DNA of 64,000 bases from Hirudinaria manillensis (lineage: Eukaryota; Annelida; Clitellata; Hirudinida; Hirudinidae): contig CM067527.1 of assembly GCA_034509925.1 (NCBI GenBank), positions 9,736,001 through 9,800,000 on the forward strand, read 5' to 3'. Position 1 is the stretch's first letter, and each line of letters begins with the position of its first letter. The notes under the pieces were generated by a model. It was not told the DNA's origin and ran no database searches. It saw nothing but the letters and a program-made list of their open reading frames with translations. Shown in pieces: positions 1,006 to 45,772 of the stretch. Both the position numbers and the translations under genes were made by a program.

Positions 1006-1511
1006 CAACATTAACAAAGTGAAGAGAAACGATGAAGATGTGCCAGTTCAGGTGTTTAAATTACTGAATATTGAGAGTCCCAAAGTCATCGCATATCTCG
1101 CGTGTTAGTCGTTCTAATCATTTAGTAAGGTCCAAAACTTAACCCTCACAAGATCCTTAAACGCAATCCGAATTTCGGTAGTTCGCATTCAGTGCCTTGT
1201 TCCTAGTTTATAAAAAAATTCTTCTCCCACTCAGTTGACCTTATGCGATCAATAAATTAAATAAGTAAATTGACATTGTCGAATTTATTAGAATTATTAT
1301 AGAAATGATAGAAATAGTTACCCTGTACATAGATTAGTTTTTCCTGAATTGTTTTTATGCCAATATACATGTATATACATGTATATATTCATATGCATAT
1401 AAATATGTGGTTACAGATGTTTCAGAAAGCGCTCCCATAGCCTGGAGAAATCTGTGGATCGTGCAATTGATCGCGATACTCAGTCAGATGTTGAAGCCAT
1501 GGAAATTGTAA
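1006..1511 (+). CDS. 3' exons of an array propeller/GPI-type protein (remnant)
   Basis: Two exons match exons 6 and 7 of the array genes to the right. The first (1006-1103) follows an AG, reads SNINKVKRNDEDVPVQVFKL and onward to PKVIAYL, and ends at a GTTAGT donor in phase 1, as in the paralogues. The second (1417-1511) starts after CAG, reads VSESAPIAWRNLWIVQLIAI plus a short tail, and ends in TAA. It has the same 95-nt length as the last exon of the 18.7-kb gene. The hydrophobic tail suggests a GPI-anchor signal. I found no exons 1-5 between here and the window edge. Either they lie outside the window or the copy is truncated; the Helitron and other repeats upstream favour disruption. Confidence 0.65.
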
Positions 1512-1925
1512 AGGCGTCGATTGTGATGATCCATTAAGCATCACGAATTGAAAAAATGGATTTGTCGAGGATATTGATAGATAAACTAAATTATTATTTT
1601 TCTTTACAATAAGTTCAGTTACATGCTTTCGATTACTTTGATGTAACGTACAAAAGTTATCAAGTAGCCAATACATTTATGGTTATCACAGATTTGGGCA
1701 ATGTTATATACCATAAATTATTTCGTAAAAATTATGTAAAACAAACGACACACTTAACTTAACTATCTTTAATTGCATTAGTTATTTTTCAGTTCAAAGG
1801 TCTATTTATTAGAATATAACGCATTGCAAAGCAAGTTGATGCCTCACGCTTTATCCACAAAATTCAGCGATGTTTAAATAGCTGGCATATATAATATACA
1901 TATTAGAAAACGAACAAATGCAATC
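1512..1925. other. gene-free spacer
   Basis: A+T-rich spacer. The small minus-strand open frame at 1422-1676 overlaps the terminal exon of the array remnant and has no support of its own. Confidence 0.5.
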
Positions 1926-2269
1926 GAGTAAAAGCATTAACAAAACACAAGAATCTCTGAATTGAATTTAATGCAATTTAAAATGTCATCATAGAATAAT
2001 TGATTTATTATTTTAAAATCATATCGAAATAACAAACTTAAACTTTTTGTTATTTTTCTATTCCTAATATCAACACATTCAGTTTCCATGGAGAGCAGGA
2101 AACGCATTTCTTTCTCATTAAGTCGCATGTTTCAACAACATTTGGACAGTTGACTAAGAATGAAAGCTTCTTCATCGTTCAAAAGTTGAGGCTAATAAAA
2201 ATATAAGCCACAAATGGATCTGCTTTTATTGATAATAAATTATTTCCAATCGTAATTGCTGACAGTTTA
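1926..2269 (+). repeat. 344-bp segmental duplication (left copy)
   Basis: Nearly identical to 11281-11624 (about ten differences by eye), in the same orientation. The right copy is the 5' flank of the array gene at 11.7 kb, so this is a duplicated upstream region rather than a transposon. The short minus-strand frame (63 codons) inside both copies is probably incidental. Confidence 0.85.
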
Positions 2270-2610
2270 TCTCACTAACCAATCGTTGTTGTCAGATCGA
2301 TTGATTCAAAAGCTTCAAAAGTAACATTATTCTGATGGCTGTGAACAATACATCGAAAGTCTCTGCTGAAAAGCACATGATGACAAAGTATAAGTCCTTT
2401 CCGAAACGGGCGCACCAATGAAAGGAATATTGCATAAAAATTGTGAACTGCCAGTGAGCTCTGAACCGAAGTATCTTACAACGGCCAGCATTTCCATGAA
2501 ATTCAAGAAGTGTGATGATCTAGTCGCAATGAGAGTTTTCATTGGATAAAAAAAAACATGAGCCAAAATGTCCATTCTCTTGTAAAATTTGTTTTTGAGT
2601 TTTTCCAATG
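2270..2610 (+). pseudogene. decayed exon 2 of an array gene
   Basis: Immediately after the duplicated 344 bp, this copy jumps to sequence matching the intron 1/exon 2 boundary of the 11.7-kb gene ('cactaaccaatcgtt', then 'agatcgattg'). Exon 1 and intron 1 have therefore been deleted. The frame is broken early by a TAA, but a stretch reading NTSKVSAEKH aligns with NSSKIFGEKH of the intact exon. Beyond about 2400 similarity fades. It is a pseudogene fragment of a partial gene duplication. Confidence 0.65.
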
Positions 2611-3691
2611 GTCTGTTAATAAATGCAAATTAAATTGTGTCAATATTTCGAAATTATTTGATATGACGGACATCTATGTCAAGCGATCAGAAGGAGACGA
2701 GACCGAGAAGCATATCTTTGTTCGATGAAGCGGTCAGCCTTGACAATCTTGTGGTCGAAGTCACTGGAGTCAGAATTAGAATTGTCATCTTTCTTTCGAC
2801 TGGCACGGAAAACCTTTAGGAATTACTTCAGAATAATGCTGGAAGAAATCAACAGTGAACAGAGAAACAAATTTGCTTCATAAACAAGGATCTACTATTA
2901 TTTTTGCAATGTTTTTTTTCCTCGTAGTATTCCACCATCATCCCTCATGATGCACCCCGTCTATAGATTTATTGTTTGATTCTCACATGTTTGATTTTGA
3001 TACAATAAAAATTGATTTTATAAAGCATGATTTTTGCGTATAAGAGATGATGGATATAGTCTCCTTTGTCCAACTGATTTTTCTACAACATCGATTTTGT
3101 TTCGAATGATAGCACTTGGGCTTCCATGCGTGTGATGCTCGCATCAAGTTCAATGTAGTTTCCTATTAAGCTCATGAAAATGAAAGGCAACATCAAGGAG
3201 GACAAAGCCAAACGTCCCTAAAAAAAACATCTCCCTGATGGAGAAAACAATTTTATAATATTTTATTCAATTTGTTATTAATGAAAATTTATTTGCTAAT
3301 TTGCTAACATTTGTCCAATATTTTTTTTAAAGATTTAATTACATATATGTTAGGGTTTCTTCCACTCATCTCATTGAGTGACCCCGCATTGAGTTGAACT
3401 TTATGAATTTTTTAAAATCTATTTACAAAGTACAATTGCATAGTTCTAGATTTATCTTTCGGTTGAACCGGATATTCGCAATAATTGCAGAATATCTAAG
3501 CGAGATAATACTTGAGCCCCTCTTACTGTACTCCTAATTCGTCTGTAAGCGATTTTGAAGAAATCGAGGATAGTTTGTTGGATTAAATCCGTAAGTTGCT
3601 TATCACCTGAAACGATTATATTATTTGATATTATGAGAACAAATTTCTAGTTCAAAGTTTATTTGCAGGCAGTATCTACGAAATTGGAATC
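2611..3691. other. gene-free stretch
   Basis: No supported gene. At 2665-2880 a short open stretch (beginning DIYVKRSEGDETEKH) is faintly like exon 6 of the array genes, which also start D-I-x-x-I-x-R. It soon meets a stop and I do not call it. The remainder is A+T-rich. Confidence 0.4.
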
Positions 3692-4010
3692 ATGGATGCA
3701 TATTATTATCTTCTGGTTTTGCTTTCCTTTGCTACCCTTGGATCAAGTGCGGTTTAAACTGATTAACTAACTTTCAATTACATTAAACAGCTTTTTTAAA
3801 CTCATTCACTTCACGAATTTTAATTTCAAACTATCCGACAAGTAATAATAAGTTAGCGAATATTAAACGGTCGAGTTTTATTGGGAGTTTGTCATTAAAA
3901 TTTAGTCTAAAATGAAAATAAAACATCGAGTTATTTGTAAAGCTTCAAACCTATACAGTTGCATGATGAAAATAAAACATTATTATCAATATCTTTATTA
4001 TTATAAATCC

Positions 4011-4046
<36 letters not shown>

Positions 4047-4055
4047 TACTATTAC

Positions 4056-4125
<70 letters not shown>

Positions 4126-4700
4126 GTTGTTGTTGTTGTTGTTTTTGGAATTAAGGTAATTACAAAATGTATAATTATACTTTTATTTATACTTACTTCA
4201 GCATTAAACGAGACCCCCGGGCCACCCACGACGCAACATTTGCCAGCAACCACAATAGGAAGTTAGATTACTTATTTTCAACTTTATAATATTTGTACAT
4301 TATAATGTACTATATTTACACCTTCGTAAGGATAAATTATTCATGTATCATTTTATTTAATGATGGTCTATAATCTAATATAAAGATTAAGGTTAGATTA
4401 ACAAAATAACCGAAAATAATTAAATTCAGACACTGAATACACAGATATAAATCCAGGCGTAGTTCCAACAACAGGTTCTATTTGTATAATATCGATGCAA
4501 CACGAATTGTTTCTAAATGGACGGAAGGTTTTACTCATGTGGAAATTTGATATTAATTTATTTATTCGAACAATCATTTAAGTTTAATTATTTAACTTGA
4601 TTATTTTCAAGATCTTCCTTCCGGTGGGGCGTCAATCATTCTGGATTCGAAAATTACCTTCTTGACTCTTGCCTGGATTTTATTTCATGTCTTGTTATGA
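3692..4700 (+). CDS. small secreted GPI-type peptide, four exons (mini-gene)
   Basis: Function unknown. Proposed exons 3692-3746, 4202-4261, 4445-4474 and 4612-4700 give 77 residues, with every intron in phase 1. Exon 1 is a typical signal peptide (MDAYYYLLVLLSFATLGS). The two middle exons are Thr/Pro-rich and contain the word VVPTT. The last exon has small residues (LPSGGAS) followed by a hydrophobic run ending FHVLL, as in a GPI-anchor signal. A 55-nt exon 1, phase-1 joints and the tail exon are shared with the propeller genes beside it. The VVPTT exon end is also found in the 17.1-kb mini-gene. Intron 1 holds a long ATT microsatellite. An AATAAA lies at 4912-4917. Confidence 0.6.
4008..4132. 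repeat. ATT/ACT microsatellite
   Basis: Long (ATT)n run with interspersed ACT units, grading into GTT units, inside intron 1 of the 3.7-kb mini-gene. It yields artefactual poly-Tyr and poly-Ile frames on the two strands. Confidence 0.95.
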
Positions 4701-5887
4701 TGATGATAATTATTAATATTCATATTATGATCGTTATTAGTTTGTATAAGGAAATGGTGATTTTAAAGATTTAGATTTAACTTCAGGCTAATATTTTGAT
4801 AGATTTATTAATAACTGATAAAAAGGTTGACCTACTATACATAACGATTAATCGTTATTTTAACATTTGTACAATCCTGATTATTGGATTGTTTGTATTT
4901 AACGACCCTACAATAAATTCTAATCCAAATTAAACAAATTTTCCTTTACCAAATAATTAAGGCTTGTTTATTAAACACTTGGTAGTTTTGCTGATAATAG
5001 AGCAATTATTGAGGAAATTTCTGACTTTCTGTTGGAACTAACTATTAGTGGTTTTGTTGTTAGATAAGATATTCATAATTTAAAGCTTCCTGATCACAAC
5101 TTTACTTCACAATATATTGTGGTTCACCAAACACAGATTGGCAAAAGGTTTGGACGTGGAGTCCAGGCGAGAAGTTAGGGACTTATTAAAAACAAAAACG
5201 GAATTAAGCCAAGATGATTTAACTACTGCAGTAACAGGATATGATTCACATAGAGTAAATTAACTTCTTCATTTAAAATCAGTAAGACTTCTGCAAAATG
5301 GCTTACTAAACCAATATTAATCAGACTCTTAAATTAATCATTTAATGGCCAGCCAGTGTTACACTTTAACTGGGACTCCTCATTTTGAGATAAGTTGAAT
5401 TAGAAAATGTTAAAAATAATTACTCTTTAGTTATGACTTAATATCATTAAGCCGATGTTTCGATGAGCCGTGTCTACAATAGGATTTGCGAACTAGCGTC
5501 TTCAATTTATCAAAAAATAAAAATCAAAATCAAATATGGAATATGTTAAATGAGTCCTTTAAGTTAATACTTCAAAATGCAACTTGTGCAATCTTAAATA
5601 CTCGCCAAATAAAAGGAAAATGAGGTAGTTGCGGCCGTGATGTGATGATAATGCTAATGATGATGACGACGACGACAATGACGGCGACAATAATGATGTT
5701 GACGCAATGCTGATGGTGGACCTCGTAAGCATTAGGTCAGAGGTGAAAAGAAATGTTCCTGATTTAATTGCAATTTTAATGAATGTCTTTAGTGCTTATT
5801 AATCAATATTTAATTAATCCAGCATTCAAATATTAACTCGCGACACGAATTTCACAGCTCTCAAAATTTGTCAAATTCGTTGGCATC
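4701..5887. other. intergenic spacer between array genes
   Basis: No gene recognised. It contains a short run of GATGATGACGACGAC-type trinucleotides at about 5645-5700 and otherwise A+T-rich unique sequence. Promoter elements for the following gene cannot be assigned. Confidence 0.5.
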
Positions 5888-7936
5888 ATGAATATTTACT
5901 CTGCAATATTGTTTATGTTTTGGTCATCAGCTTTTCGAGGGGAAAGTAAATTATTTTAAAATATTATTTCTTTTATATGTATATATATATATAAACTTCA
6001 ATATAAAATAAAATCGATAAATTTGGTGGACATTATATATATATATATATATATATATACTTATTTATGAATGTTATTGTGATTCAGATGTTCCCTTGAA
6101 AAACAGCCTAGCTGTTTTGGACTCTGTTAACATTTACCAATTGTCTATGGATGATTCAAAGGAATATTTTTCTGGTAAACATGGACTGAATGATGTCCAA
6201 TTTCTGAATGCCAAGGTCTTTCCTGCAAGTTTCAATACCGTTTATGGGAGCTGTAATAGCAGTTCAGTCGGCTATTTCAGACAACTTGAAAAACTATACT
6301 TTGGGACGCTAAAATTGAGTGATTTAGGTGTTTATTCTCATGTTTTTTTAATTACCGATAATTTTTAAAATTCTTAAATTCTATTTAATTGTTGATAATT
6401 TCATTTTATTAAGAATTAGATAAGACACCATATTTTATTAAATTTCGATAGGGATCATAGGGATATGCGATACAGTGCCAGCTTTTCATATCAACACTTA
6501 CTACTCGTCTCTGACCAATGGCGAGATCAGATTGTTTGATTGGGGTTCTAAAAATGAGACAATAATTTTAACATCACCAGATAACGCCACAGGTATTCGT
6601 GTTAACCTTCAAATAGATTATGATAACAAGTAAGTAACTTATCAGTGGTTTGTTTTATTAACTAGATTTTCCAAAAGTTGCCACAAGAAAAATTAAATTA
6701 TTAAATTATTTATGGGCTAATTGACTTTTATAAATATCTTTAATAATTTAGTTTTATTCAACTTTGATTTAATACATTTCATTCTTAGATTCTTATACTA
6801 TTTGGAGATTGGCTGTCCACAGAACGACTTCGTGGAACTCAAGAAATTGAATCTTGAAACTTTAATAACTCCTTCGACTATAAAATTCTCGGAAAAAATT
6901 CGAAGTTTTGAAATTGATTTTAGAAGTTAGTTAATTTGAAATTTATTCGCATTCCAATTACAATTCATTTTTAAATCACTATCTTTCAGAAAATGAGATA
7001 TTTGCAATTTCTGAGACCGACGCATTGCTAAAGGGAAAATTTGATGGTTTTCAAGAAGTCCATCTAGAAGGATTTAAGAGTTTCGAACAAAAGATAGTCG
7101 ATATCGCACTAACTCCGTCGGATGTGTATTATATTAATAAAGAATCCAGGTAAACAATTAATAATTAAATACTTCAACCAAAGGTTGTTCTTCTCTTGCG
7201 ATCTGTATTATAAGATCTTTATAAGAACTTAAACAACAGTAAATATTTTTTAAAATGTGAGATTTTTTCGATTGTATTAGCTTTTGCGTTTCTCATTGGA
7301 GACATATTCTGGATATTTTTGTGGTCACACCATTTCATATTTCATAACTTAAATTCAGACAACATGTTTGATATGCGGAATGTTATTTAAGCTGGTGATT
7401 TGAGAGGGTTGCTCACATAATAATAATAATAATAATAGTTTTGCACCATCTATAATATAATTTTATTGCTCTACTAATACTGTTTTGTCAAGTACCATCG
7501 AAAAAATTAGAAGATCAGGAGGTAAAGCAAAGCGTGTGTTTGAGTCCATTCCTTTCAAAAATCCCAAAGTTATCGGTTACATCCAAGGTTAGTTACCCGA
7601 ATTAATTCAAGAACATTTTTTGTTAAATAATAACTAACGAAAACCAAAATAAATATTAGAAATAAATTTATATATAATTAAATATTAATCTAATAATTAA
7701 ATTTGAATAAATAAATAAAAATAAAACAAAACGTGGTGTCTAAATTCTATTAAATGATTAATTTGTTTACTAATAATTTCAATTAATTTCCTTGCGAACG
7801 AATTCGTAAATGCATTGGAAAACTTAAATTTAACAAAATCTTACTAATTGCAGTTTCAGGTTCGGGTAATCCGACCAATACCTGGATCTTTGGAAACGTA
7901 TTGATATTCTTCGGTATTCACCTGTGGTCAAATTAG
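5888..7936 (+). CDS. secreted beta-propeller-like protein with GPI-type tail (array gene, intact)
   Basis: Seven exons (5888-5945, 6088-6327, 6452-6629, 6789-6925, 6990-7149, 7493-7587, 7854-7936) join in phase to give 316 residues; all donors and acceptors are GT/AG. Exon 1 is a signal peptide (MNIYSAILFMFWSSAFRG). Exons 2-6 contain repeated blade-like motifs: NIYQLSMDD, GEIRLFDWGS, NEIFAISE, and DVYYINKES followed by a hydrophilic IEKIRRSGGKAKRVF stretch. The last resembles LDL-receptor class B (YWTD) blades, so a six-bladed propeller is my inference. Exon 7 has SGSGN then a hydrophobic end, typical of GPI signals. The exon lengths and intron phases (1,1,2,1,2,1) recur in the three other seven-exon copies. 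The ligand or role is unknown; an extracellular surface protein is likely. Confidence 0.8.
5976..6059. repeat. TA dinucleotide repeats
   Basis: Two (TA)n runs, at about 5978-5993 and 6034-6059, within intron 1 of the 5.9-kb array gene. Confidence 0.9.
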
Positions 7937-8718
7937 AAACTTTTTGCTACAACATTTATATAATGCTTTTAATGCATTTGTAACCATTTATTTTTTAATA
8001 ATTCGATGTTTTCGTAATTAATTCGTAGTTAATTTTAATATTGTTTCGCTTGGAATTAGTTGAAATTGATTGGTATTCGTGTTGAATTAGTTATATTATA
8101 CTGATAAACCGAATAATATGCACATTGTATTATTAATCACAATTTCTCTGATTGCTGTTTCGAATTCCTACGATGATGATGATGATGATAAAAAAAATGT
8201 TGCTTCTCAGTATTACAAACTCATCTTAAATCGTAAAATTTCGATTTGGTATCTTTTGAATTTTATTCTTAATGGACATTGACAAACGCGCCAAAGGCTT
8301 TGGTTTTAGCATTTTTTAAAAAATAAATATAACCAAATTTAAAGAATTATGTCATTTAAACTCAAAAAAGCCTAAGTTAGCTTTAGTGAAAATCTGTTGA
8401 AGCAATAATAATGTATAATTTAAATCTACTCGAAATGACTGGAAACCATTTGGCTCAAAACTTTAAATAATGTTATAATGGACCTCTTGAGAAACTCAAA
8501 GCATACTCAATAATTGTTCTGTCACTCACTACAGCTTAAATAATCGGCCTTATTAAGTAGGAAGTAATTAATTTTGGTCATCCGAGTTAACAAATAATCG
8601 CGTCACTACATCTTTGAAATATCGGTTTGAATCGTAAATCTACCAAATTCGGTGTTGAAATAATTTATAAATCAAACCAAATTAATATTGCAGATGAACG
8701 GATTAAGAAACGTATGGC
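7937..8718. other. intergenic spacer between array genes
   Basis: A+T-rich with no recognised gene. A short GATGATGATGATGAT run is near 8172. It presumably holds the 3' end of the left gene and the promoter of the right one. Confidence 0.5.
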
Positions 8719-10794
8719 ATGAATTCATACGTTTTATTCCTGTCTTTGTTCCTAACGTCGACAAGAGGAGAAAGTAACCCTTTTAAAGGATATTCTATTA
8801 AAATAAATTTATTTTAAGTTTTACGATTTCTAAACAAATATCGAGGAATTAAAAAAAAAATATTTACTCGAATGTAGCCTCGATTTTTATGTTCGATGCG
8901 AATAATGTCGTAGGAACTACAAATGAAGATTGTATTTATGCCAGGTGCTCATCTAAAAAATTTTATTCTTGTTATGGACTCTGGCAACATTTACCAACTG
9001 TCCATGGACGATTCATCAGAGTACTTCACTGGTAAACACGAATTTGTGGTCGACGCACCATACTTAAACAGCAAGAGTTTCCAAATTAAATTCACTTCAG
9101 TTTTTGGAAGCTGCCAGAGTTCGTCAATAGGATATTTTATGCAAACTTATAAGCAGTTCTTTTCCTCATTAACTTTGGATCATTTGGGTAAAATTAAACG
9201 GTTTCAGTTCATTTATTTATTCCAGCACGTCTAAATATTTTGCTTGTTCTTCAAAAGGAGGATAACGAATCTGTGATGTTGTGCCTGGTTTTAACGAGAA
9301 TACATTTTATGCTTTGCTGAAAAACAATTCCATCACACATTTCAATTTGATCGAAGCAAAATTTTCCATAATTCTTGCGCCGAGTGATGAATGTCTTTCC
9401 AATCTTCAACTGGATCATGAAAACCGGTAAGAGACTCGACCTGATAGCCCTGTTGCATTTATTCTTTTTTAAGAAATGGCCATAATTTGATTATACTTTA
9501 CTTAACCTTGAATTTCTTTCAGTCTCTTGTACTATTTGAAAGGCTGCAATCGTAATGAAAACTCGCAGTTAAGGATTCTAGATCTTGAAAAATCATTGAT
9601 TTCAAACTTTCAATCATTATCGCGACACGTTCGAAACTTTGAAATAGATTTTAGAAGTCAGTTGGATTTAAACTGAAGTTTTTTATTTTATTTTATTGAA
9701 AAGTTTTCTAAAATGACTTTTGGAATTTTTGAAATAAATTGATCAAAATTCACATTTATTTCAGAAAGCGAAATATTTGCAATTTCTGAGAACGATATTT
9801 TATTAAAGGGAAAACTTGGTGAATCTAAAAAGGTCGACTTAGAAGAAATTACAAATTTCAATCAACAGGTAGTTGATATTGCAGTCACTCCTATTAACGA
9901 ATTACATTTCTAATTTGTTGATTTATTATATTTTTACAAGTTTAGTTTTCAAAATCGGAGTAAAAAAATTGAACGCGATTATTTTATTTATATATTTAAT
10001 AATCTTTTATATTGATTTTGTAACATCAATAAGATGTAGGAGTTAAAAAATAAACCAACAGCTATGTGACAGATCACACGATCAATTTTAGTTTGGTTAA
10101 AACGAATTTAAAATTTGAAACATTTGTAAAGTTGGATATTTCATGAAAAATTATCACGATTGAAAACTGGTTAGTCATGACTGCCATGTCAACTTTGTAA
10201 TTTCTACTTCTAGAGACATTAGAAAAATAAGCAGGTCAGATGGTACAGCAAACCGTGTTTATGAATCCACTCCGTTCAGAAACCCAAGAGCTGTTGCTTT
10301 TCTCCATTGTTAGTCTGTTAATCAAAATAATTCAATGCTTTCATGATTTCAATAATTACACTTTTAATATGCATTTCGATAATTACCAGAATCATTATTT
10401 AATAGCAGAAGCTAATTAGAAATATTTCAAGTTGGAAGAAATAAATTAATTAGGATATCATCAAAGATGAACCAAAACTTAAAAAAAAATAAACATTTAA
10501 TAAATGTTAATCTTAACCTTTTTAGACAATAGCATATAAATCAATAATACCAATACGATTCATTTTATCAATAATATCCCATTTTTACCATAATAAATGT
10601 TAATCTTAACCTTTTTAGACAATAGCATATAAATCAATAACACCAATGCGATTGATTTTATCAATAATATCCCATTTTTACCATTTTCAGTTCCAAATTC
10701 AAGTGCAACGATTGATATTTACAAATCAGAAGCAATTCCGTTGATTTTCATATTTGTTCTAAATCTCATCAATCTTGAATCGTACAATGTTTGA
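8719..10794 (+). pseudogene. array propeller/GPI gene with two in-frame stops
   Basis: All seven exons of the family are recognisable: 8719-8773 (signal MNSYVLFLSLFLTSTRG), 8945-9187, about 9258-9426, 9523-9656, from 9765, 10214-10308 and 10691-10794 (hydrophobic tail from PNSSATIDIYKSEAIPLIFI). Exon 2 has NIYQLSMDDSSEYFTGKH, very close to the 5.9-kb gene. Two lesions are visible. Just inside exon 3 the frame reads TAA, three codons before the conserved ICDVVPGF-type motif, at 9264-9266. In exon 5 the end of the exon and its phase-2 donor are lost, so the frame runs into TAA at 9911-9913. Exons 6 and 7 remain open and in phase. Probably a recent pseudogene; otherwise a truncated product of exons 1-2 could be made. 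Confidence 0.7.
10501..10686. repeat. 93-bp tandem duplication in intron 6
   Basis: The unit starting at 10501 ('taaatgttaatcttaacc') is repeated at 10594 with only a few differences. It ends next to the acceptor of the terminal exon at 10689, so the duplication copied the pre-acceptor region. Confidence 0.85.
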
Positions 10795-11280
10795 CGATAA
10801 TTGAACCCTGCTTCGAACAAGTGCTTCTTAAGTGATATTACATGCAAACCGAGTTCATTTGGATTTCCAATATTTGGCAAAAATTCAATTTCATTACAAT
10901 TCCATAAAATTGACGAATAATAAATTTTTCGTCTTTCGATGGTCTCGTCTAAACCACCCGGATGGAGCAGACTGTAAAACCTCCAGGACGTGTCATTGGA
11001 GAGGCTGGAAAAACCGTGTGTGTCTGCTGAATGCGCTGATCCTGGTGTTGTCGAAGTGCCTGCAGATCGAGTCGTTGAGCAGGGGATTTTAAGTTTATTT
11101 TTGTGACAGTCGTTTGCCTAGAATTGTAAACAACTAACAGATGATTGCATTCACGTTGGGCGATCATATAATATTGAGATCATGTAAGATATTCTGGAAT
11201 GACGTGCGATCGATCTGTATATATATATACATATCATACTCTTATCGATTCTATATATATACACATGGTACATAATCTCC
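10795..11280. other. intergenic region, unassigned
   Basis: There is a comparatively G+C-rich block at 10950-11090 with small frames on both strands, none recognised. It may be an old mobile-element fragment. A (TA)n-like run lies at 11218-11262. Confidence 0.4.
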
Positions 11281-11624
11281 GAGTAAATGCATTAACAAAA
11301 CACAAGAATCTCTGAATTGAATTTAATGCAATTTAAAATGTCATCATAGAATAATTGATTTAATATTTTAAAATCAGATCGAAATAACAAACTTAAACTT
11401 TTTGTTATTTTTCTATTCCTAATATCAACACATTCAGTTTCCATGGAGAGCAGGAGACGCAATTCTTTCTCATTAAGTCGCATGTTTCAACAACATGTGG
11501 ACAGTTGACTAAGAATGAAAGCTTCTTCATCGTTCAAATGTTGAGGCTGATAAAAATGTAAGCCACAAATGGATCTGCCTTTATTGATAATAAATTATTT
11601 CCAATCGTAATTGCTGACAGTTTA
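11281..11624 (+). repeat. 344-bp segmental duplication (right copy)
   Basis: Partner of 1926-2269. It ends about 60 bp before the first exon of the 11.7-kb array gene and so is probably part of the gene's 5' flank, which makes this the likely parental location. Confidence 0.85.
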
Positions 11625-11686
11625 ACAATTTTTAATGGAAATATAAAAACATTAACATTATTTACAGGCTCGGATCGGTTACTGCC

Positions 11687-14600
11687 ATAAAATTATTCCT
11701 GTTGGCTCTTTTTGTTTATATGTCATTAGCAAAGTTAACTGGTAATGTTAGATATTTTCTCGTTTTATCACATTTAAAGAATTCATTTCAGTTGAATTAA
11801 TATGTTTGAAATTTTATTCGATCTGGCGATCATTTAGAAACGAATTTCCTTCTAACATCCCACTAACCAATCGTTATTTCAGATCGATTGCTTCAAAAGG
11901 GTTTCATTATCATTTCCACTACAGATGTTGTTCTGTTGAGTGCGTATAATTCATCGAAAATCTTTGGTGAAAAGCACAACATCTCAAATGCTTTTTTCCT
12001 GGCCGCAAAACCTTATATTAATGGCTTCGACATCACTTACGGAAATTGCGAAGGCATTAACGTTGGATGGTTGAGAGTGCAAGATAATGAACTATATTCT
12101 GGATTAATGCCTCTAGATGGTAATGATTCAACGTTTTTATTCAAGTGAAATTTTCAATTCTCAATTTGTTTTTACACAGCTCATATAACAATTTGTTGCC
12201 TCGCTCCGGCTTTTCAGCAGAACACATATTACGTAGCTCTAAGAGAAGGATTCATAATACACTTCGATCACAACACAGGTATAATGGAACCGCTCACAGG
12301 GATAAATACTTGTTCTTTCAATCTCCAATTAGACGAGAGCAAACGGTAGGCCTACTTTTGTTATTGTAGTGAAACGTTTTAATAAAATAAAATTGAAAAA
12401 CACCAAAAAAAGACTTCATCTCTGTAGCTTACGCGTTCGGCGCTATATAAATGACTTATTATTATTATTATTATTAATAAAATTATAAAGTTTTGTAAAA
12501 GTAAATGGGTTTCGTCATAATGAATAGATGATTTTTACAATAAACTTAAATGTAATTAGATGTTATAAAATGGCGGGGTTGAAATGAAATTTTGCCTTTA
12601 ATAGAATACACCTTTTTCACTCTAAACTTTCAGGTTAATATACTTTTTGGGAGGTATCTGTGGTGATATAACGAAATCCAAAAGTTTGATTGAATTTGAT
12701 AATCAGACAAAGGTGACTAAGAGTTATGAAATTTCGACTTCAGTATTGAAGTTGATAATGGATTTTGATGGTGAGTTGATTTAAATTTTATTTTATTTAA
12801 AATTTTATTTTTCAAATTAAGTTATAATTTTTATTCTTAAATTCACAGCGGACGAAATATATGCCCTCTCAGAATCACGAAATTTAATGAAAGGAAAATT
12901 GGAATCCGACAAAATCACTTTAACACAATTTAAAAACATAAATCAACTGATTAGAGACTTTACCCTAACTCCTGATGAAATTTATTTCATTACTAAAACT
13001 AACAGGTAAACAAATCATCAATCATCAATTGATTAAAACCAAATATAATGATCCTGGTCTAAAAATTACCAGCAAGTTTAAGATTAAAAAAGTAAAAAAT
13101 TTTCTATACATTCAGTATGATTGACTTAAGTTGTACCCTTTCTGTATGTGTCAAAGCAGTACTGCGCTCTCTCCGCTAATGGTTTAATGGACTCCATACA
13201 ATTAAATAATTATTCCAAATTCTTATTTTAGAGAGAGTTTTGTTTACTTGAGTAAGTAAATAATGTAAATATTTTTAACAATGCCTCAAAAACGTTATTA
13301 TATTTGCTATCATTTATGCTGTTTATCTTTTCGGTGTATTAAAAGTTAAATTTTATCTGGGCCTTAATAAGATGCTTGGAGTATGAGGCAGATGGAATCA
13401 ATTCAGGATTTGTGACTCGGTATACGTTCTTATGACCGAATCCATAATTTACAGTATCATCCACCGCCAGATTTCTTTTAAAAAATAGAAATGCTTTGTT
13501 AGCGTACTTTTGGTCTATCAACTTCTTCTTCAGGTCTCGGTATTATTAGTGCCCATTATTAGTGCTTGGTCTCTGCGCTGACGACGTAGGACTAACAAGA
13601 ATCTTCTTTGATAAATTCGGCAACAGCTGAAATCTGAATTTCTGCTGTTCCAACAGACGATGCTGTTAGTTTCAAACAGCCCGGCCAAATATTGAAAGCA
13701 TGACATTTTCACCATTGGCATAAACTCGTCGTTGTTATAATAAGATGTCGGCGATGCTTGTCGTTTAAAGTTTTCACCGGTATACATTCAGCAAACTGGT
13801 CAAATTTTTAATGTTTTGAACCAAACTTTTGAAACGACCTAGCAGTTGATGATGGTTTTTTGTTGACTGCAGGAATTTTAGCTCTTTATCGATTCTGACA
13901 AAAATGTCATAAGTATTGCACCCCAATTTTTCGAGAATTTCATTGATACACTGTTGAATAATGACAACAGCCTTTCTTTCCAATTTATGCCTTAAATGAA
14001 TTCATGAATGACGTTGGTTTTAATATTCCATTTGGCTCCGTCGTCCCCATGGATTGACAAGCGTAATTTCAGGTGAGATTTAAGTCAATGTAACTTTGTT
14101 CAAATATTAGAGACACTTGCTAGTCAGCCCGGACAAACACCGAGTCTAACACATTTATTCAGTCATCCAATCCGTTGCCTTTTGAAACGCTGAAGTGTTG
14201 ACCCGATGAGCATCTTCAGGTTCCATCTTTGGGTCTCTGAGATTCTGTGTTGTTTGATATGTTGGGGCTTAACTAACTTTTCGACTTTGATGCTCTTAGG
14301 AAATCCTAATTATACCCTATCCTAAAGCCACCAACTGATTGATGCCATTTGCCATTTGCCAGGGTTATGACAATGTTATCAAAAATGTTATAGGATCGAA
14401 TTTTACTTTAACAATAATGTTATTTGCAGTAAGCAACTTTGCTAATAAAACCTAACTGCTTAATTTTTATATTTTAATGTGCACGTAAAACTCATTTGAT
14501 CCTTTCTTAACGTTGCTTTATTTAATTCAAAAACCTCAAGTAAGGTCTACAAAGTGAACAGATCAGATGATGGAGAGGCAACTGAAATGTTTCGATCACT

Positions 14601-14948
14601 CAATGTTGACTCACCTTTACTAATTGCCTTTCTTGGTGGTTAGTCATTCTAAATATTTTGTAATACTTTTTGCAACAATTTTTATCATCTGCTTTTGTAA
14701 CAATACAATCCTAAGTTTGGAAGGATAATCCAAAAGCTAATTTCCGTACGATACTCATGAGTCGTCTAGAAAATTTGTTTACATTTTTAATTAATTCACT
14801 GATTTGTTTGACATCATTATCAATTCCAGATGTCCCCATACCGGTCACAGAGAGTTCTTTCTCGACTTCATTAAGTCCTCTACTTTATTTGCTAACGTTC
14901 CTGGTTACGCTGAAGGCATGGAGAACGATTTTTTATCTTTTCTGCTGA
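11687..14948 (+). CDS. array propeller/GPI gene lacking a start ATG
   Basis: Seven exons (11687-11741, 11883-12119, 12180-12345, 12634-12770, 12849-13005, 14541-14635, 14830-14948) keep an open frame of 321 residues with the family's intron phases. Exon 1 encodes a good signal sequence (KLFLLALFVYMSLAKLTG), and its 55-nt length equals that of three neighbours, but the codon where they have ATG is ATA (11687-11689). Upstream in frame there is no ATG before a TAA. Blade-like motifs include DEIYALSE and DEIYFITK followed by KVYKVNRSDDGEATEMF. The last exon has TESSFSTS followed by a hydrophobic run ending IFYLFC. Start-codon loss or a non-AUG start are the choices; the body otherwise looks under constraint. 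Intron 5 is enlarged to 1.5 kb by foreign sequence. Confidence 0.7.
12420..12478 (+). mobile_element. SINE-like 3' tail with ATT repeat
   Basis: In intron 3 of the array gene, 'ttcggcgctatataaatgac' runs directly into (TTA)n. A 'GCGCTATATAAAT' block ending in an ATT microsatellite is a common 3' end of short interspersed elements in invertebrates, from general knowledge. The 5' limit is not visible. Confidence 0.4.
13339..13983 (-). pseudogene. unidentified transposon-like relic inside intron 5
   Basis: Three minus-strand frames follow one another (13983-13774, 13787-13530, 13521-13339) and read as one decayed protein. The first contains ILEKLGCNTYDIFVRIDKEL and the second KRQASPTSYYNNDEF. 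The layout (a domestic gene on the plus strand, foreign frame on the minus strand within a swollen intron) suggests an inserted element. I considered a hAT-like transposase but no catalytic motif can be shown. 14000-14300 may belong to the same insertion. Confidence 0.35.
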
Positions 14949-16949
14949 AAATCGACAATAACTCATTTGACGAGGAAATTAACAAATTTAGCTCGATTAG
15001 ATCTAAGAAGTTTACGTAAACATGTACTTATGTATTTGTTTTATATTTTATACTTATATATTTATTTTATTTTTTCATTTATTTTCAAACTTACATGACA
15101 CATAGCACTTACACAGCATTTACGTGAAAAAAAAGTAGAACATTGGATCGATGCAGAGCAAATTAGACTGCATCCACAATTTTAAAAAGACATTTGTCAG
15201 TTAAATTAGCTTATTCAAAGTTCTTTACAAGCAAGTGATAGGAACCGATTTAGATTTTTTATTCAATTCGTGAATTAGCAAAATGTAGGCCGAGTTCCAA
15301 TCAGCTTCGAGGTTTCGTCTATGAATTTGCTTAAAGTTTGTAGCTAGGAGTTTGTGTTCTTGAAGAGCCATGAGTTGAAGAAGAAACTGAACTTTGCGCT
15401 TTTAGTATTTTTTTAACTTGTTTTTTAAAAATGTTTTTTTTTTTAAAGAATATTTTGGTCTCTTGTAAAAGTAAAAAAAAAAACATGATAGAATGATATT
15501 GACATTATTAACGCTTGTTTTGATGATAATCAGCTGCTTAAATATTATAACCCATTGACCCCTGACCCTGTGAGCAATTTAAGCCCTTCTGACGGGGTTC
15601 CTTAAATAAAATTTGCATATAAATGGTAATTGATAAATGTTTGCGCATCTCATTTTTCCTTCCCCATAGTTAAGGTCAGGGCTCAAGAGATTGGCTATAG
15701 TAGCCAATGAAATTGGTGCTAAGAAAAAAAATGAAACATGCAGTAAACTGTTAAGGGATTGCCATAAAAAAAATAAAATATTTAAATCTCCACATTGAGC
15801 CACATCGATTAAGTTCATATTTAGATGTTATAATTATAACTTTACTGTTTGTAATTTGTTTGAAATTAATAAATTTCTCGAAAACCATTCTTGACTCGTA
15901 TTATTTGCATAACAAATTGTTTCAACGTTGATAATCCTGCCAAAACAAAGAGCAAAGTTAGGTTAATTTATTTCAAGTAGCAGTTTTATTTATTTATTTT
16001 GTCCTAAACTGAAAGTCACATGACAAAATACCCATCCCATTTTCAGTCTAAACACATTTTAATGTAGAAATATTCGAAAAAAACTAATTTTGGTCGTTAA
16101 ATTTATCTTATTTAGTTAGCAAACTTTAGGTTTTATTTTTATTTTTTAAACTATACTGATATAAATATGGATATCCATCGATAAAAGATTCTCTTCCTTA
16201 TAAATTCTTTAGATACTCTCAATAACGATAGTTGTTTTTTAACACTAATGTTTTTGTCATCTTAGATTTAATAATCAGTACAACATTGCTACAACAACAA
16301 CAACAAAAATAAAAAAATAATCAAATATTATTATCATAAAATTCTGCAAGAAAGCAAGGAAATAATTTCTGAAAATAAAAATTGATCACATCAGAAGACA
16401 ACAACAACAACGGCGATGACTAAAATTTCATCGACAATACCGCCATGAGGGTCGCACATCCGGTCTGGTCCTAAAACTACAGTTAATAATCCAAGTCAAG
16501 TACTTAATAATAATAATAACAATAATACTAATAATAATAATAGTAATAATAAAAATATTCAAACATTATTTAATAAGAATATTATTTAAAATTAGATTAT
16601 TTGCGTAAATAATATTATTATAATAACTCCTTCATCAGCTTAAGTTTTTGCCAATAAACTTAACTCCGCTCACTTGATCTGTTTTCAGGGGAAGCCAGAA
16701 AAATAAATTACAAAATGAATTATAAATTTATCAAATATCCGGTTTTACTTAGTCACCATTCAGCATAAAAGTAGCATTCATTCAAGTCTTTCGCTTCCTA
16801 GTTTAGTGTTTTAGTCGGATCGAAATATTTTGGATATTTTGTGCAATTAAATTAAAAGGTTAGACAAATTGAAACTATCCTTTCAGTTAGGTGATAAGAT
16901 CACAGAATGTCATAATTTACTATTTACTGATATATTTAATAATAATAAT

Positions 16950-16990
<41 letters not shown>

Positions 16991-17089
16991 TAATAATAAT
17001 AGATGATGTAAAGGTGTGCAAGTCAGGCAAAATCATTAGTTGAAAAAATATACGAATAGTTATATTTGCTTGTAGATTCAAAAGGAACA
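14949..17089. other. intergenic region, no gene seen
   Basis: Two kilobases of A+T-rich sequence. There are AAT/AAC microsatellites at about 16506-16550 and 16938-17000, and a CAA run near 16290. The minus-strand frame at 15579-15818 has no recognisable features. Confidence 0.5.
16938..17000. repeat. AAT microsatellite
   Basis: (AAT)n run with an AAC interruption, about 90 bp upstream of the start of the 17.1-kb mini-gene. Confidence 0.95.
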
Positions 17090-17927
17090 ATGCACTTACA
17101 TGTCCTTCTCGTCGCCCTGTTCTTGGTGCTATTCTCTTCATCTGGTATTAGTTTGAATTAATTATAATTTGTAATTATCAATTATGACTATAAAACAATA
17201 TCTAAATCATTATAATTATGGCTGTGAAGTGAGGTTTCCTGTCGAATCTACTTTATGTTATTATTTTACAAAACAAATTGAAAAGATTATTACCTCTTGA
17301 TTCATTTTATTTTATTTCTGGACCAAATTCAGGCAAAAGTCAGAAAACAGAGGAACCTAATCCATCAAGAGGTCAAAGTGATTCTCCTGTTGTTCCTACG
17401 ACAGGTTTCATAAATGCTTTAAGTTGAAATTCATTTTTAGTTGAAGGGATGGATTTTGAAGAAAATGGTTTGAATCAAAAGTGTGATTATTTGCTTGCAT
17501 AATTACATTGTACTTTAATTAAATTTCGGAAGTTCCCAAACTAGAATATTTGGGATGAAATCGTAATATGAATTAATTTAATTAATTAAGTTTAAAATAA
17601 CACAATCAGTTACATGATTATTCACTTATAAATAACAGATTGCTCCAATACCAGCTCAATTTACTCATAAATGAATTTTAAAGATTGTTTGTATATTAAT
17701 AATTAAGACAATTACAAGTCGTCGCTAAATAAATCACACTGCAGTGTATTCTAATTGTATTATAAAAAGCTAACAACAAGTTGCAAATGCAATTAGCCCT
17801 GTTTGTTCCATTTTCGTTTTCAGCTCCAACATCATCAGATGCTAAGAAAAGTATCTCGAGTTCTCTCGAACCTACTTTGGCAATCGCTCTCAACCTAGGC
17901 ATCTTCATCCTCCTCACTCTCAATTGA
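17090..17927 (+). CDS. small secreted GPI-type peptide, three exons (mini-gene)
   Basis: Exons 17090-17144, 17333-17404 and 17824-17927 give 76 residues, with both introns in phase 1. Exon 1 is a 55-nt signal exon (MHLHVLLVALFLVLFSSS). Exon 2 is hydrophilic and ends SPVVPTT, exactly where the 3.7-kb mini-gene has GVVPTT. Exon 3 is Ser-rich (SSDAKKSISSSLEPT) and then hydrophobic (LAIALNLGIFILLTLN), as expected for a GPI signal. The mature peptide would be only about 30 residues. An AATAAA at 18085-18090 could be the poly(A) signal. It sits between two propeller genes and shares their first- and last-exon design without the propeller exons. Confidence 0.65.
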
Positions 17928-18693
17928 CGATGATAGTGATGACGTTGATGGAAACGTATTTTCAAAAGAATGAAGTTGTAATTTCCTTTAACAACCACTT
18001 TAATAATTCTTTCTGCTCAAATTTAAGAAATTTTAATAGAAAAAGTTTAATTGTTAAAGAATTTTTATGTCTACTTTTCGTTACAATAAATGTTTGGATT
18101 TGAAAGTCTGCATAGTTTTACGATGTTGTTGGTTCATCAGAACCTTGATAATCAATCTTGAATAATCTTACTTAAAGATCTTTCTTAATCTTACTTAAAG
18201 GCGTTATTACTAACACAGTTGACCTAAGATTTCGCGAAATATTTGACCTCTGATGGGCTCTCTAAGTTGTAGCTGTCAACGAAATGTTTTGACACCCTTT
18301 CCTTATTCTCAGCAATTGAAGTCCATTCCAGGTACATAATTGATGTAACAACAGAAAAAAGTTTGGAAATTACCAATCGTTCAAATAATAATAGAAACAA
18401 TAAATTAATTGTTTCATGCGCAGATGTCCAAATATTCTGCGGCAAAGCAATCGATGATTTAGTCATTTGCTTTAATAATAGCATCGCCTTTGGTATGCTC
18501 AGGTAAAGCGATATTGAACAAAGAGAGGCAAGCTTTCAATTCACTAGTTTGGCTTCAGATTCTAAGGTCGACTGATTATAATGCATTAAACATCTGATAT
18601 TGTAGTATTTAAAAGTATCAAAAATAATTAATGTAAACTAAATATCTTTTGGAGTCTTAACAAACCTTTGCCAGACCTTTAACTTTGCCAGAA
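17928..18693. other. 3' flank and spacer
   Basis: Carries the AATAAA at 18085-18090 for the gene on its left. The minus-strand frame at 18224-18484 has no recognised motif and is not called. Confidence 0.5.
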
Positions 18694-21037
18694 ATGGCGA
18701 TGTGCAGTTACACCATTTTGGTCTCTTTGCTGCTTATCGGACCAACTGTACTTGGAGAAGGTCAATAACATTTTCTTAATTGTTTGTAATCTCTTTGAAC
18801 TACATGAAATGAAATTTAAGTATCAAATTTAAAAATTAATCGTCTCTGGAACTTTTCAATGAGTTTCCAGCCTGATTGATGAAGTAATTGTTGATTGAAT
18901 ATAATTTACCCATGATATATCCATGCATTATTTTTATAAAAAAAAAATTCCCAATAATCAATCCATAATTGGCTGTAAAGGAAACTCAACTTGCTTCAAA
19001 GAGGTGTTCATGGAACCAATTAAATGCCGCAATTAATATTAGCAGATAGGTTGTTCCACTATGACTTTAAAGACACAGGTTCTTAGCTTTTTTCTAGTGC
19101 GACACCTAGACTTGACACAAAAAAGTCGACACATCTTGCAATACGACTTAATGAAAGATATGCATTTTGTATGCATTTGATATATTTATACAAATGTTAT
19201 AGATGTACATGAAATATTTGAAACTTTCAAGTGAAGGTGCAGTTTTAGACTCTGTTTTGCTCAGTCGTGCTCGGTGGAAATTAGACTAGTGATCGAAAGG
19301 GGATAGAATTTCAATGAGAAATTATATTACTTAAGTTATAAATTAATCATTTGAATCCGATCCCTTCCTCCAAGAACTGAGATTTCTTTTATATCGCAAT
19401 AGGTAAACCATTAATTGAGCGTTAACTAAACATTCGATAAAAATTATTTAAAAAAAAAAAACAATTGAGATCATTATTGATTCAGATGACCATTTGGTGA
19501 ACAGTCTCTTGGTCTTTGACAAGAACTACATTTACCAGTTTCCAGTTAACTCTATAACGAACAAAACTAAATATTTGCACGATTCACGAAGCAATGCTGG
19601 CTTCGTTGATTTTTTGACAGTCAGAAGGTTCAGCAATAGTTTCTTTGCCGTTTTCGGAGGCTGTGAGAGTAGTGCTGTTGGACTGTTGATTCAGAATGAA
19701 AGTACACATGCATACCAACTTCCATTAAATAGTCAGTTTAGCTATTTTCTTTCTTTTAAATAAAAGTCTGAAATTTAACAACTATGTTGTCAACCAGATT
19801 CACTTAGGGTTTGTTATGCTGTGCCGGCATTTGTTAACGCCAGCTTCTATGCGCTGCTGAAATCTCAGGAGATAGTCTTACTTGATTCCAAGGACGATTC
19901 TACAAGAGTGGTTTTGCGGTTACCAGAAGGAACAAAGTGTTCTCGTTCAAATCTTCAAATAGATTACGAAAAACAGTAAGTAATTTAATGAAAATGTTTC
20001 GCGTGTGCTTTAAAACTTAACGCTGAAGGTCTAGCAAGATGGAGAATGGTGAACTCAAATTGATTGTTTTTAGCCTTCTATTCTATCTGGACTGCTCTCA
20101 GAATGTCACCCAATTCTTGAGGATCCTAAATATTGCCAGTAATGTTGAGACTGGAAAGTCACTCTCGAGGAAAATAGAAAAGTTTGAAATCGATTTCAAC
20201 AGTAGGTGAACTAATGTTTAATCAATCCAAGATAAGTTTTAAACAAAATGCATTTTGTTTAGCAAGTCTTAATAAATCGATTGCATCAACTTGTGCTTGT
20301 AATTTAAGTATGTATTAATTTTAATTAGGTAACGAAATATTTGCTTTTTCCGCAAATGTCTTGCTCAAAGGAAAACTGAATGAGTCGAAGAAAATCAATT
20401 TGGAATTGTTTCATAATGCTTCCCATGCAATCGATGATCTTGCAGTTTCTCCAACAAGTGTTTATATTAAGCTTACTGGAGGAGGGTAACGATAAGATAA
20501 AATTTCTATCTAAAATGATGATCGTTATTTTGAATCGCAACTGGACTCTTTGGCACTTATCGGTTTCAGCAGAACTTGTGTCTTCGAAATTCAAAAGTCA
20601 AATGTTTTCCTAAGTCTTAGCGATGATATTTAAGAGATTAAATTATTGTAATTTAATAAAACTAAATAAATAAATACAAAGTGTTGGTTAATTTTAACTC
20701 TAATTTTTACTAATTCTTATAAATAATAATTCTTATTCTTTCGATAGTGATATTCGTGTAATTCGAAGAGTCGATTCAATATCAGTCCCACTGAATTACA
20801 GCTTCGATGAAGCACGAGCCATAGCCTATCTTGAAGGTAATTAACATATTTATTTATCATATTTTCATGTTTTTTATGGCTTATTTATTTTTATTCACTC
20901 TAAATTCGAGCTAATCAATAACTGATTTTCATTCACGTGCAGTGACGAGCGCTCTTTCTATGAACAATCTCTCAATCATCACGAAAATCTTGTTGGTTTT
21001 GATTTGGATTTTGTCTTCTAACATACTCGACCGATGA
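18694..21037 (+). CDS. secreted beta-propeller-like protein with GPI-type tail (array gene, intact)
   Basis: Seven exons (18694-18760, 19486-19731, 19798-19975, 20074-20201, 20329-20485, 20748-20836, 20943-21037) give 319 residues with the same intron phases as the 5.9-kb gene. Exon 3 is the same length (178 nt). The signal peptide is MAMCSYTILVSLLLIGPTVLG. Blade-like motifs: NYIYQFPV, QEIVLLDS, NEIFAFSAN, and DIRVIRRVDSISVPLNYSFD. The conserved GGCESSAVG corresponds to GSCNSSSVG of the paralogue. The tail exon has SALSMNNLS followed by a hydrophobic run ending ILDR. A possible poly(A) signal is at 21335-21340. The most divergent full member of the array, but no lesion is seen. Confidence 0.8.
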
Positions 21038-40601: not shown

Positions 40602-41383
40602 GTTGTCTGCAATCTTCCAAAAAGGTTATCCATGCAAACAAATCATTTGAGATTTGTAATGCTCTTTGATTTTTATAAATTAAGTTCTATTGAGCGGCAA
40701 GCTGATGATGTAGTTTGGGAATCTGCTCTGCCCAAGGAGCAAGCAACAACTGGTATTTTTGAGAATATCCATAACTGATGGTGGAGGATCTGGAGGGTAA
40801 ATGACAATTGGAGATATTGATAAAACACTAACACTTTCGTTTTCCTGTCCATGCACCCAGGAGCGAATTTCTCGGTCACGGAAGTTGGCAGTGTTGAGAT
40901 TTCCTGACCTGACCTGATCTGTTGCTGCTGTCAGGTCGCTGAAAACCAGATCCATGTCGTGTTTGAAGTCGGAATCTGTTTTCCAGTCTAGAGATGGGTG
41001 AGGCATGCACAATGCATAGATTGTTCATGTCGGGCCAATGACATCAGGAATGGCATGATTTTGCTTATCTCCCAAGGTCTTTGGTTGGAATGAGAAGGGG
41101 TTAAACCAATGTTAATGATAATAGTTAATTTGAAAAACACCATATTGCATCAGAGATGCAGATATTGTCATCCATCTGGTATTGTGATGGGCTTGAAGCC
41201 TTGGGTATAGCTTGTACTTGCTGTCGGGTAAATACTTTTAACTCATTTGTGAGGTCCCTTACATCTTTCATAGAAGTTGACCCACAACTTGCTTTCTAGC
41301 AACTTATCTCATCACTTTGAGAAATGATGATGGTCTCTGTTGTGTTGAATAAAGTGATTATGTTCTGCAATTTTATTCCTTTA

Positions 41384-43620: not shown

Positions 43621-43779
43621 TTGAGCATAATTTTTCTCACAGTCTGTGAGGGAACGACTTGAACATTTTATTCAGCCCTGAGCAATCTGTAAGATCACAT
43701 CAACCATCTACCTCATCTAATATTTTAGGTCCTCCATTGGGTCAGGGATCACCCTAGGACCATCGCAATAATAAAATTA

Positions 43780-44545
43780 TTAATAAATAATAATTTAATA
43801 AAATTGTCCGAGAAAAAAAGAAATTCTAAGAATTAGAAATGAGATATTGTTTTTTAGTCCGTTTGCGGTTCCATCCTCGTTTCCTCCATATGCTGGACTT
43901 CCATATCTTCCAGATCCGATATGACTCCGACATTGTCTTGATTGACAACCACATGAGAAGTCGCCTTGAGACACCATGCTGTCTCCAAACCTTCCACGAT
44001 TCCGCCGAGATGGCTCCTCTCCAGTTCGCCACGAAAGCTGTGATCAATCCCTCCTGTTCTCCAGTGACGCCAGATGGATTGTTTTGCTTCATCCACTGGT
44101 TGATGTCTGGCATGTTATACTTGTCGACCTTGAACCTATGGAAGTAGTTCAGGTCGAACGTGTCAGCAATCACCGCCGTATCGCAAACCATATATCGCGA
44201 CCCGTGCCATGCAAAGAGGTCGGGAATTCTTGTCCCATTCCGCGTTGGAATTCGTGGCTCTAACTTCACGATGTAGCCTCTTCTTTCGAGGTGGGCTGCC
44301 AGCATACGGACGAGGGCATCGTGTCTGAGGTGACGAGGGCCATTCGTTCTATGACAGTTTTGAATGATGTGGCCCAGTGATTCTGTCACACCGCAACCGG
44401 CATCGCAGGATGTGTCGGCAACTGGGCATCTCCTTGCCGAACGCAGCTTGTTCTGTAAGACGCCGGCGCGGACCTTCACACATTGCAGAAATTGTTTATT
44501 TTTATAGGCAGCTGGTCCATCTCTCTGCTTGAAACACATACGACC
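43780..44545 (-). mobile_element. R2-like non-LTR retrotransposon, 3' part
   Basis: One 237-codon frame (44539-43826) covers the C-terminal part of an R2-clade protein. It contains LQCVKVRAGVLQNKLRSARR, then a CCHC finger (CDAGCGVTESLGHIIQNC), then a restriction-like endonuclease region with PDLFAWHGSRYMVCDTAV (the PD...D motif). The reverse transcriptase is absent, so this is a 5'-truncated copy. Its 5' edge abuts the gypsy gag relic at about 44.55 kb. R2 elements normally insert into 28S rDNA; no rDNA is visible around this copy. A short A+T-rich stretch (43763-43800) follows the coding end. Confidence 0.82.
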
Positions 44546-44549
44546 ATTT

Positions 44550-45732: not shown

Positions 45733-45772
45733 GTCGTGTTTGGATACGTTTATTTACAAAGACTGTCAACAG

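Follow-up and report, generated by a model that had tools for sequence, protein, structure and literature searches.

The closest described counterparts of the genes analyzed here are the viperid three-finger toxin genes, whose introns are >85% alike but whose exons include segments that are only 12.5-50% alike, a pattern called accelerated segment switch in exons (ASSET); the origin of the new exon segments is given as unknown (PMC2474615, PMC2711939). We analyzed a 64,000-nucleotide stretch of the genome of the leech Hirudinaria manillensis (C2:9736001-9800000, hereafter the window) together with 46 kb upstream of it, and found that ten paralogs and one decayed copy, which arose by gene duplication, make up a single ~54 kb cluster on contig C2 (9703-9757 kb). 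Three paralogs lie on the minus strand (g1, g2, and g3) and seven on the plus strand (g4, g5, g6, A, B, C, and D); the window edge cuts off the left part of the cluster, such that the six members g1-g6 begin upstream of it. The cluster resembles the toxin genes in consisting of duplicated genes with one exon layout, introns that are alike, and exon segments that are radically different. Unlike them, it encodes an unrelated protein domain with a probable surface anchor, and the contrast was measured in a single gene pair.

Two other systems share single features with the cluster. Six-bladed propellers of the YWTD type (LDL-receptor class B, PF00058) are comparable in that the cluster proteins can be divided by eye into units of ~40-48 residues, but these proteins have no PDB match and, in the four cores scanned, no Pfam match, and a profile comparison was insignificant. 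CD52 is a small mucin-like peptide with a glycosylphosphatidylinositol (GPI) anchor, and peptides of this type resemble two predicted mini-genes of the array in combining a signal, a short Thr/Pro/Ser stretch, and a hydrophobic end. No comparable system was found in the open-licence literature searched. If the interpretation favored below is correct, a family without known relatives would join the few animal genes in which exons outpace introns, outside venoms, exons 3 and 4 would be the place where variation should be sought, and the cluster would become a candidate recognition locus for annelids, whose recognition genes are, to our knowledge, little known. The main reason for renewed interest in the locus is the excess of exon divergence between g4 and g5, which had not been seen in an earlier account made from the letters of the window (the sequence-only reading).

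Exons 3 and 4 of g4 and g5 differ far more than the enclosing noncoding DNA

g4 and g5 are segmental duplicates that are alike across 1.5 kb and further, and they are the one pair young enough for comparison. In noncoding DNA, the two genes can be aligned over 759 bases, of which 92 differ (12%). By comparison, 62 of 169 bases differ in exon 3, which was placed by eye in both genes (37%; Fisher test against noncoding, p=8e-13), and 63 of 134 in exon 4 (47%; p=1e-18), well beyond the divergence of the surrounding introns and flank. The remaining core and signal exons differ at 5/55 (exon 1), 38/231 (exon 2), and 21/163 bases (exon 5), and exon 6 differs at about 1 of 95 bases and encodes an identical protein segment. 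Within exon 4, the interior is nearly unrelated between the two genes and the encoded protein is 25% identical, with the ends, the length, and the adjacent splice sites retained. Across exons 3 and 4, nonsynonymous changes per site reach 0.425, compared with 0.121 in noncoding DNA (p=3e-22). Since both exons exceed the noncoding rate, relaxed constraint alone is insufficient to account for their divergence.

Introns 1-3 of the pair (89-92% alike) lie above the 85% seen in the toxin genes, but intron 4 (74-80% alike) lies below it. Exons 3 and 4 would correspond to the switched segments in this one pair, with exons 1, 5, and 6 conserved. A weaker second case is provided by the decayed copy, which corresponds to the 5' part of member C (flank, end of intron 1, and exon 2; window positions 1925-2420, plus strand): compared with C, its flank differs at 10 of 344 bases, and its exon 2 at 43 of the 124 bases that align, in an alignment containing 113 gap columns. 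Separately, the sequence surrounding exon 6 (C2:9715600-9716235 and C2:9723293-9723928) is 96-100% alike in g4 and g5, compared with 84-92% elsewhere, and is likely a gene-conversion tract.

Candidate explanations for the exon excess

Our preferred account, held tentatively and with a little less than even confidence, is that the cluster is a surface-anchored recognition or binding family with diversified middle exons. A signal peptide, a variable beta domain, a Ser/Thr-containing stretch, and a GPI-like end would together make a surface-anchored binding protein, with exons 3 and 4 encoding a variable binding face and exons 1, 5, 6, and 7 preserving scaffold, secretion, and anchoring. The bound partner, whether a pathogen, a host, a mate, or another partner, would change over time. 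Exons 3 and 4 would be diversified either piece by piece, with segments taken from diverged copies or alleles, or through point changes and small insertions or deletions under very strong selection. Secretion, anchoring, binding, and selection are all inferred. The sequence-only reading had listed recognition, mating, and host interaction as candidate roles, and the exon and intron divergence of g4 and g5 makes a recognition role more likely, coding divergence above that of silent DNA being a pattern known from genes involved in recognition contests.

Several observations weigh against this account. The ratio of nonsynonymous to synonymous rates (dN/dS) is ~1 in exons 2-5 (0.97-1.16) and 1.02 overall (0 in exon 6), since exons 3 and 4 show an elevated dS as well, and a ratio of ~1 in this pair does not separately show substitution-type selection. 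With dS raised and the introns intact, replacement of segments is favored over point-wise positive selection. The nonsynonymous rates of exon 2 and exon 5 are not above the noncoding rate (p=0.14 and 0.88, respectively), and the noncoding background is itself uneven (26% divergence in intron 4, 16% at the start of intron 5). Just one functional pair was measured, the GPI and signal calls are heuristic, and of the window's four full-length members, B and C are damaged.

A possible but rather unlikely variant is that a GPI-anchored, mostly-beta scaffold carries exons 3+4 as a symmetric cassette and dedicated variable region, which would be swapped as a whole between copies or alleles, leaving the remainder of the gene and its introns in place, and which would serve immune, mating, or host binding. 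Distances between members agreed for 6 of 10 exon pairs (Mantel p<0.05), for 7 of 10 when B and g5 were removed, and for 6 of 10 when B and g4 were removed. The distances of exon 3 agree with those of exons 2 and 4 and never with those of exons 5 or 6, while exon 4 distances disagree with those of exons 5 and 6; since exons 3 and 4 are both discordant with exons 5 and 6, exchange of a 3+4 block is possible.

We also consider it unlikely, if conceivable, that g4 and g5 are old duplicates whose noncoding DNA was homogenized by gene conversion, with exons 3 and 4 either escaping or acquiring a segment of some diverged gene or allele. Conversion would make a special recognition role unnecessary, although selection keeping the exons different would be needed. 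The identity of the pair is patchy, as conversion predicts (100% in the intron before exon 6, 96% at the start of intron 6, and 84-92% elsewhere), and both the identical exon 6 protein and the joint rise of dN and dS in exons 3 and 4 are consistent with it. In addition, exon 4 of g4 and exon 4 of g5 are each closer to another member (g6 at 42% and g1 at 43%) than to one another. However, conversion would require tract boundaries at or within the exons on two occasions, between flanking introns (2 and 3) that are 89% alike, and no donor was found in a DNA search with each exon 4, which returned only the query itself and is insensitive enough to miss the other exon 4.

That the cluster is an ordinary tandem family of secreted proteins, in part decaying and engaged in no contest, with divergence that reflects low constraint, seems improbable to us. 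The damage to B and C, the decayed copy at 1.9-2.4 kb, and dN/dS near 1 would all fit such a family. Low constraint, however, yields at most the noncoding rate of 12%, as opposed to the 37-47% observed, and nine core frames, all except that of B, have remained open.

The sequence-only reading had attributed the array to exon shuffling, in which symmetric phase-1 cassettes would be swapped among members and loss of the whole core would give the mini-genes. What it had described as a multi-member array with a common plan of signal, core, and tail exons and with outer junctions all in phase 1 held up, and the phase-1 junctions, the symmetry of exon pairs 3+4 and 5+6, and the fit of exon 3 distances to exons 2 and 4 but not to exons 5 and 6, even without B and either g4 or g5, would suit shuffling. 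Phase-1 junctions are ordinary in extracellular genes, though; the signal exon of an unrelated immunoglobulin (Ig)-like receptor in the window also ends in phase 1. The internal exons are asymmetric (1-2, 2-1), and symmetry is confined to exon 2 and to exons 3+4 and 5+6 taken as pairs. Exon order is identical in all members traced, which favors whole-gene duplication. A tree of the core separates {g1, g2, g3, D} from {A, B, C, g4, g5, g6} with support of 100/99 and joins g4 and g5 with 100/100, and three of its seven inner branches lack resolution. No homology between the signal and tail exons of different members was detectable except in g4 and g5. Given the constant exon order, the exons 3 of g4 and g5 that remain mutual nearest neighbors, the mini-gene exons without convincing similarity to family exons, and a distance test that is noisy for short exons at 20-40% identity, shuffling as the origin of the array is quite improbable.

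Gene layout, members, and the encoded domain

Whole-genome protein searches (148.4 Mb, 23 contigs) with A, D, and the g5 core listed 28, 30, and 22 matches, respectively (E up to 10), and every match listed falls within C2 9703-9757 kb, with the proviso that these searches score the best candidates only and distant relatives may escape. Exon matches between cluster members reach E values down to 7e-16, beyond chance. Seven of the ten members could be followed end to end; in these, a signal exon with a phase-1 end precedes five core exons, and the tail exon, likewise entered in phase 1, encodes a hydrophobic sequence. The predicted product of each well-traced member comprises a signal peptide, a domain of ~265 residues, and a C-terminus that is short and hydrophobic. 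Signal exons were located for g2-g6, A, B, and D, and for C without an ATG, whereas none was found for g1; tail exons were located for g1, g3, g4, g5, A, B, C, and D, and those sought for g2 and g6 were not. The boundary scan of g1-g6 found AG/GT sites of the required phase at corresponding places or close by (the exon 3 donor of g3 is GC), with phases imposed by the scan, so that equal lengths modulo 3 are not independent evidence in these six members.

Only A and D are intact full-length members within the window, both being open seven-exon genes with AG/GT junctions and intron phases 1,1,2,1,2,1. Member A (5888-7936, plus strand, 316 residues) comprises exons at 5888-5945, 6088-6327, 6452-6629, 6789-6925, 6990-7149, 7493-7587, and 7854-7936. 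Member D (18694-21037, plus, 319 residues) comprises exons at 18694-18760, 19486-19731, 19798-19975, 20074-20201, 20329-20485, 20748-20836, and 20943-21037. Member C (11687-14948, plus, 322 residues) is open apart from an ATA in place of ATG at the expected start position, 11687, and its exons lie at 11687-11741, 11883-12119, 12180-12345, 12634-12770, 12849-13005, 14541-14638, and 14830-14948; a 5' exon spliced at 11667 might in principle supply an ATG. Member B (8719-10794, plus) is pseudogene-like, with exons at 8719-8773, 8945-9187, ~9258-9426, 9523-9656, and 9765-9913, an exon-6-like segment at 10214-10308, and a tail-like segment at 10691-10794. It carries in-frame stops, one TAA lying between any exon 3 acceptor and the homologous codons and a second ending exon 5, and the boundary scan returned no usable exon 3 acceptor and no usable exon 5 donor for it. 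A 93-base unit, repeated twice in tandem with 97% identity (10498-10683), adjoins the tail-like exon of B.

The seven-exon layout with fixed phases proposed in the sequence-only reading is thus borne out in A and D, but its extension to every member is too strong given the damage to B and C. The lengths it reported recur for the signal exon (55 nt in B, C, and both mini-genes), for exon 3 (178 nt in A and D), and for exon 4 (137 nt in A and C). An exon 6 of 95 nt, said to occur three times, is found inside the window in A and B alone (C, 98 nt; D, 89 nt; g6, 98 nt), although exon 6 of g4 and g5, outside the window, is also 95 nt. Nor is position 1006 a gene start: exon matches between members and the boundary scan identify 1006-1103 (plus, 98 nt) as exon 6 of g6; exons 1-5 of this gene are situated outside the window, 2.6-3.8 kb before its left edge (C2:9732217-9733393, plus).

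Hydrophobic exons of 52-67 nt beginning with ATG, which would encode signal peptides, are present in g2-g6, A, B, and D. Using a simple home-made GPI filter, 9 of 10 tails passed (C failed), compared with 64 of 875 open reading frame ends in the window, a comparison biased by the tails having been picked partly for hydrophobicity; with that reservation, the filter agrees with the earlier description of the tails as GPI-like. The tail exons of g4 and g5 differ at 7 of 34 residues, counted on the alignment, and the tail is retained in both. The encoded proteins would accordingly be candidates for GPI anchoring at the cell surface.

The ~265-residue domain appears to be without match in the libraries searched or elsewhere in the genome. 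Pfam scans, which covered four cores (A, D, pieces of B, and g2), gave nothing above cut-off and no PF00058; one PDB profile search gave no match and the other two chance matches (E 1.9 and 2). By eye, six units of ~40-48 residues resemble YWTD blades and carry phi-x-phi-D ... YYL motifs (for example, LQIDYEKHLLFYLD). When the ten cores were compared with a profile built from the genome's own YWTD repeats, using 200 shuffles, g2 and D outscored all shuffles, A and B were beaten by 4 and 5, and 11 to 53 shuffles scored above g4, g1, g6, g3, and C; g5 had no match and reversed A outscored A. Profile comparisons did not outperform reversed controls, and an internal six-fold repeat was not significant against them (second self-match, E 0.17; best blade pair, E 0.015, with reversed controls down to E 0.028).

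AlphaFold models of exons 2+3 and 4+5 of C, with in-frame introns retained, had predicted local distance difference test (pLDDT) values of 43.3 and 41.9 and consisted mostly of strands; a single helix, of low confidence, spans residues 20-31 in the first piece. Foldseek with that first piece gave no match at E<=0.001 (best E 0.46). Homology to known propellers was dropped, as neither sequence (Pfam, PDB, and the YWTD profile) nor the low-confidence fold of the two C pieces supported it. The beta-propeller named in the sequence-only reading therefore lacks backing from library matches, repeats, profile, and models alike: the domain is probably mostly beta, and a propeller fold is neither shown nor excluded by these models.

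Mini-genes and other features of the window

Two predicted mini-genes, plausible but not established, lie among the full-length members on the plus strand. Mini-gene 1 (3692-4700, 82 residues) would encode a signal, two Thr/Pro exons, and a GPI-like tail in exons at 3692-3746, 4202-4261, 4430-4474, and 4612-4700 (55, 60, 45, and 89 nt), with a weak first donor, GTGCGG. Mini-gene 2 (17090-17927, 76 residues) would encode a signal, a Thr/Pro-rich exon, and a hydrophobic tail in exons at 17090-17144, 17333-17404, and 17824-17927 (55, 72, and 104 nt). In both, one internal exon ends in VVPTT. A filter devised after the mini-genes had been seen returned mini-gene 2 on the plus strand of 50 kb and missed mini-gene 1; it returned nothing on the minus strand of the same 50 kb and nothing in 8 Markov shuffles. 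Genome searches with the mini-genes gave no convincing match elsewhere (one at E 3.06), mini-gene 1 finding only itself. The earlier proposal of two such genes therefore survives in that both can be read as signal, Thr/Pro stretch, and tail, but with weaker support, since the filter recovers only one.

Outside the array, the predicted small Ig-like receptor gene (49100-50569, minus) has a signal exon ending in phase 1 and two Ig-like exons, followed, from reading of its translation, by a transmembrane end and a short basic tail; Pfam I-set matches (E 0.0039 and 0.15) are both below the curated cut-off. Open reading frames at 40680-45859 (minus) resemble, by eye, a Helitron-type helicase and a non-long-terminal-repeat reverse transcriptase. 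Rfam and transfer RNA scans of the window gave no match. A 523-residue open frame occupies a G+C-richer stretch at 54247-55818 (plus), and its first 308 residues have no Pfam match. The mitochondrial gene order, set against the ground pattern of annelids, indicates an annelid genome. Elsewhere in the genome, a copy of cox1 (G000:C9:3026446-3027786) scores equal to the copy on the mitochondrial contig, C23, and is either a recent nuclear copy or an assembly error.

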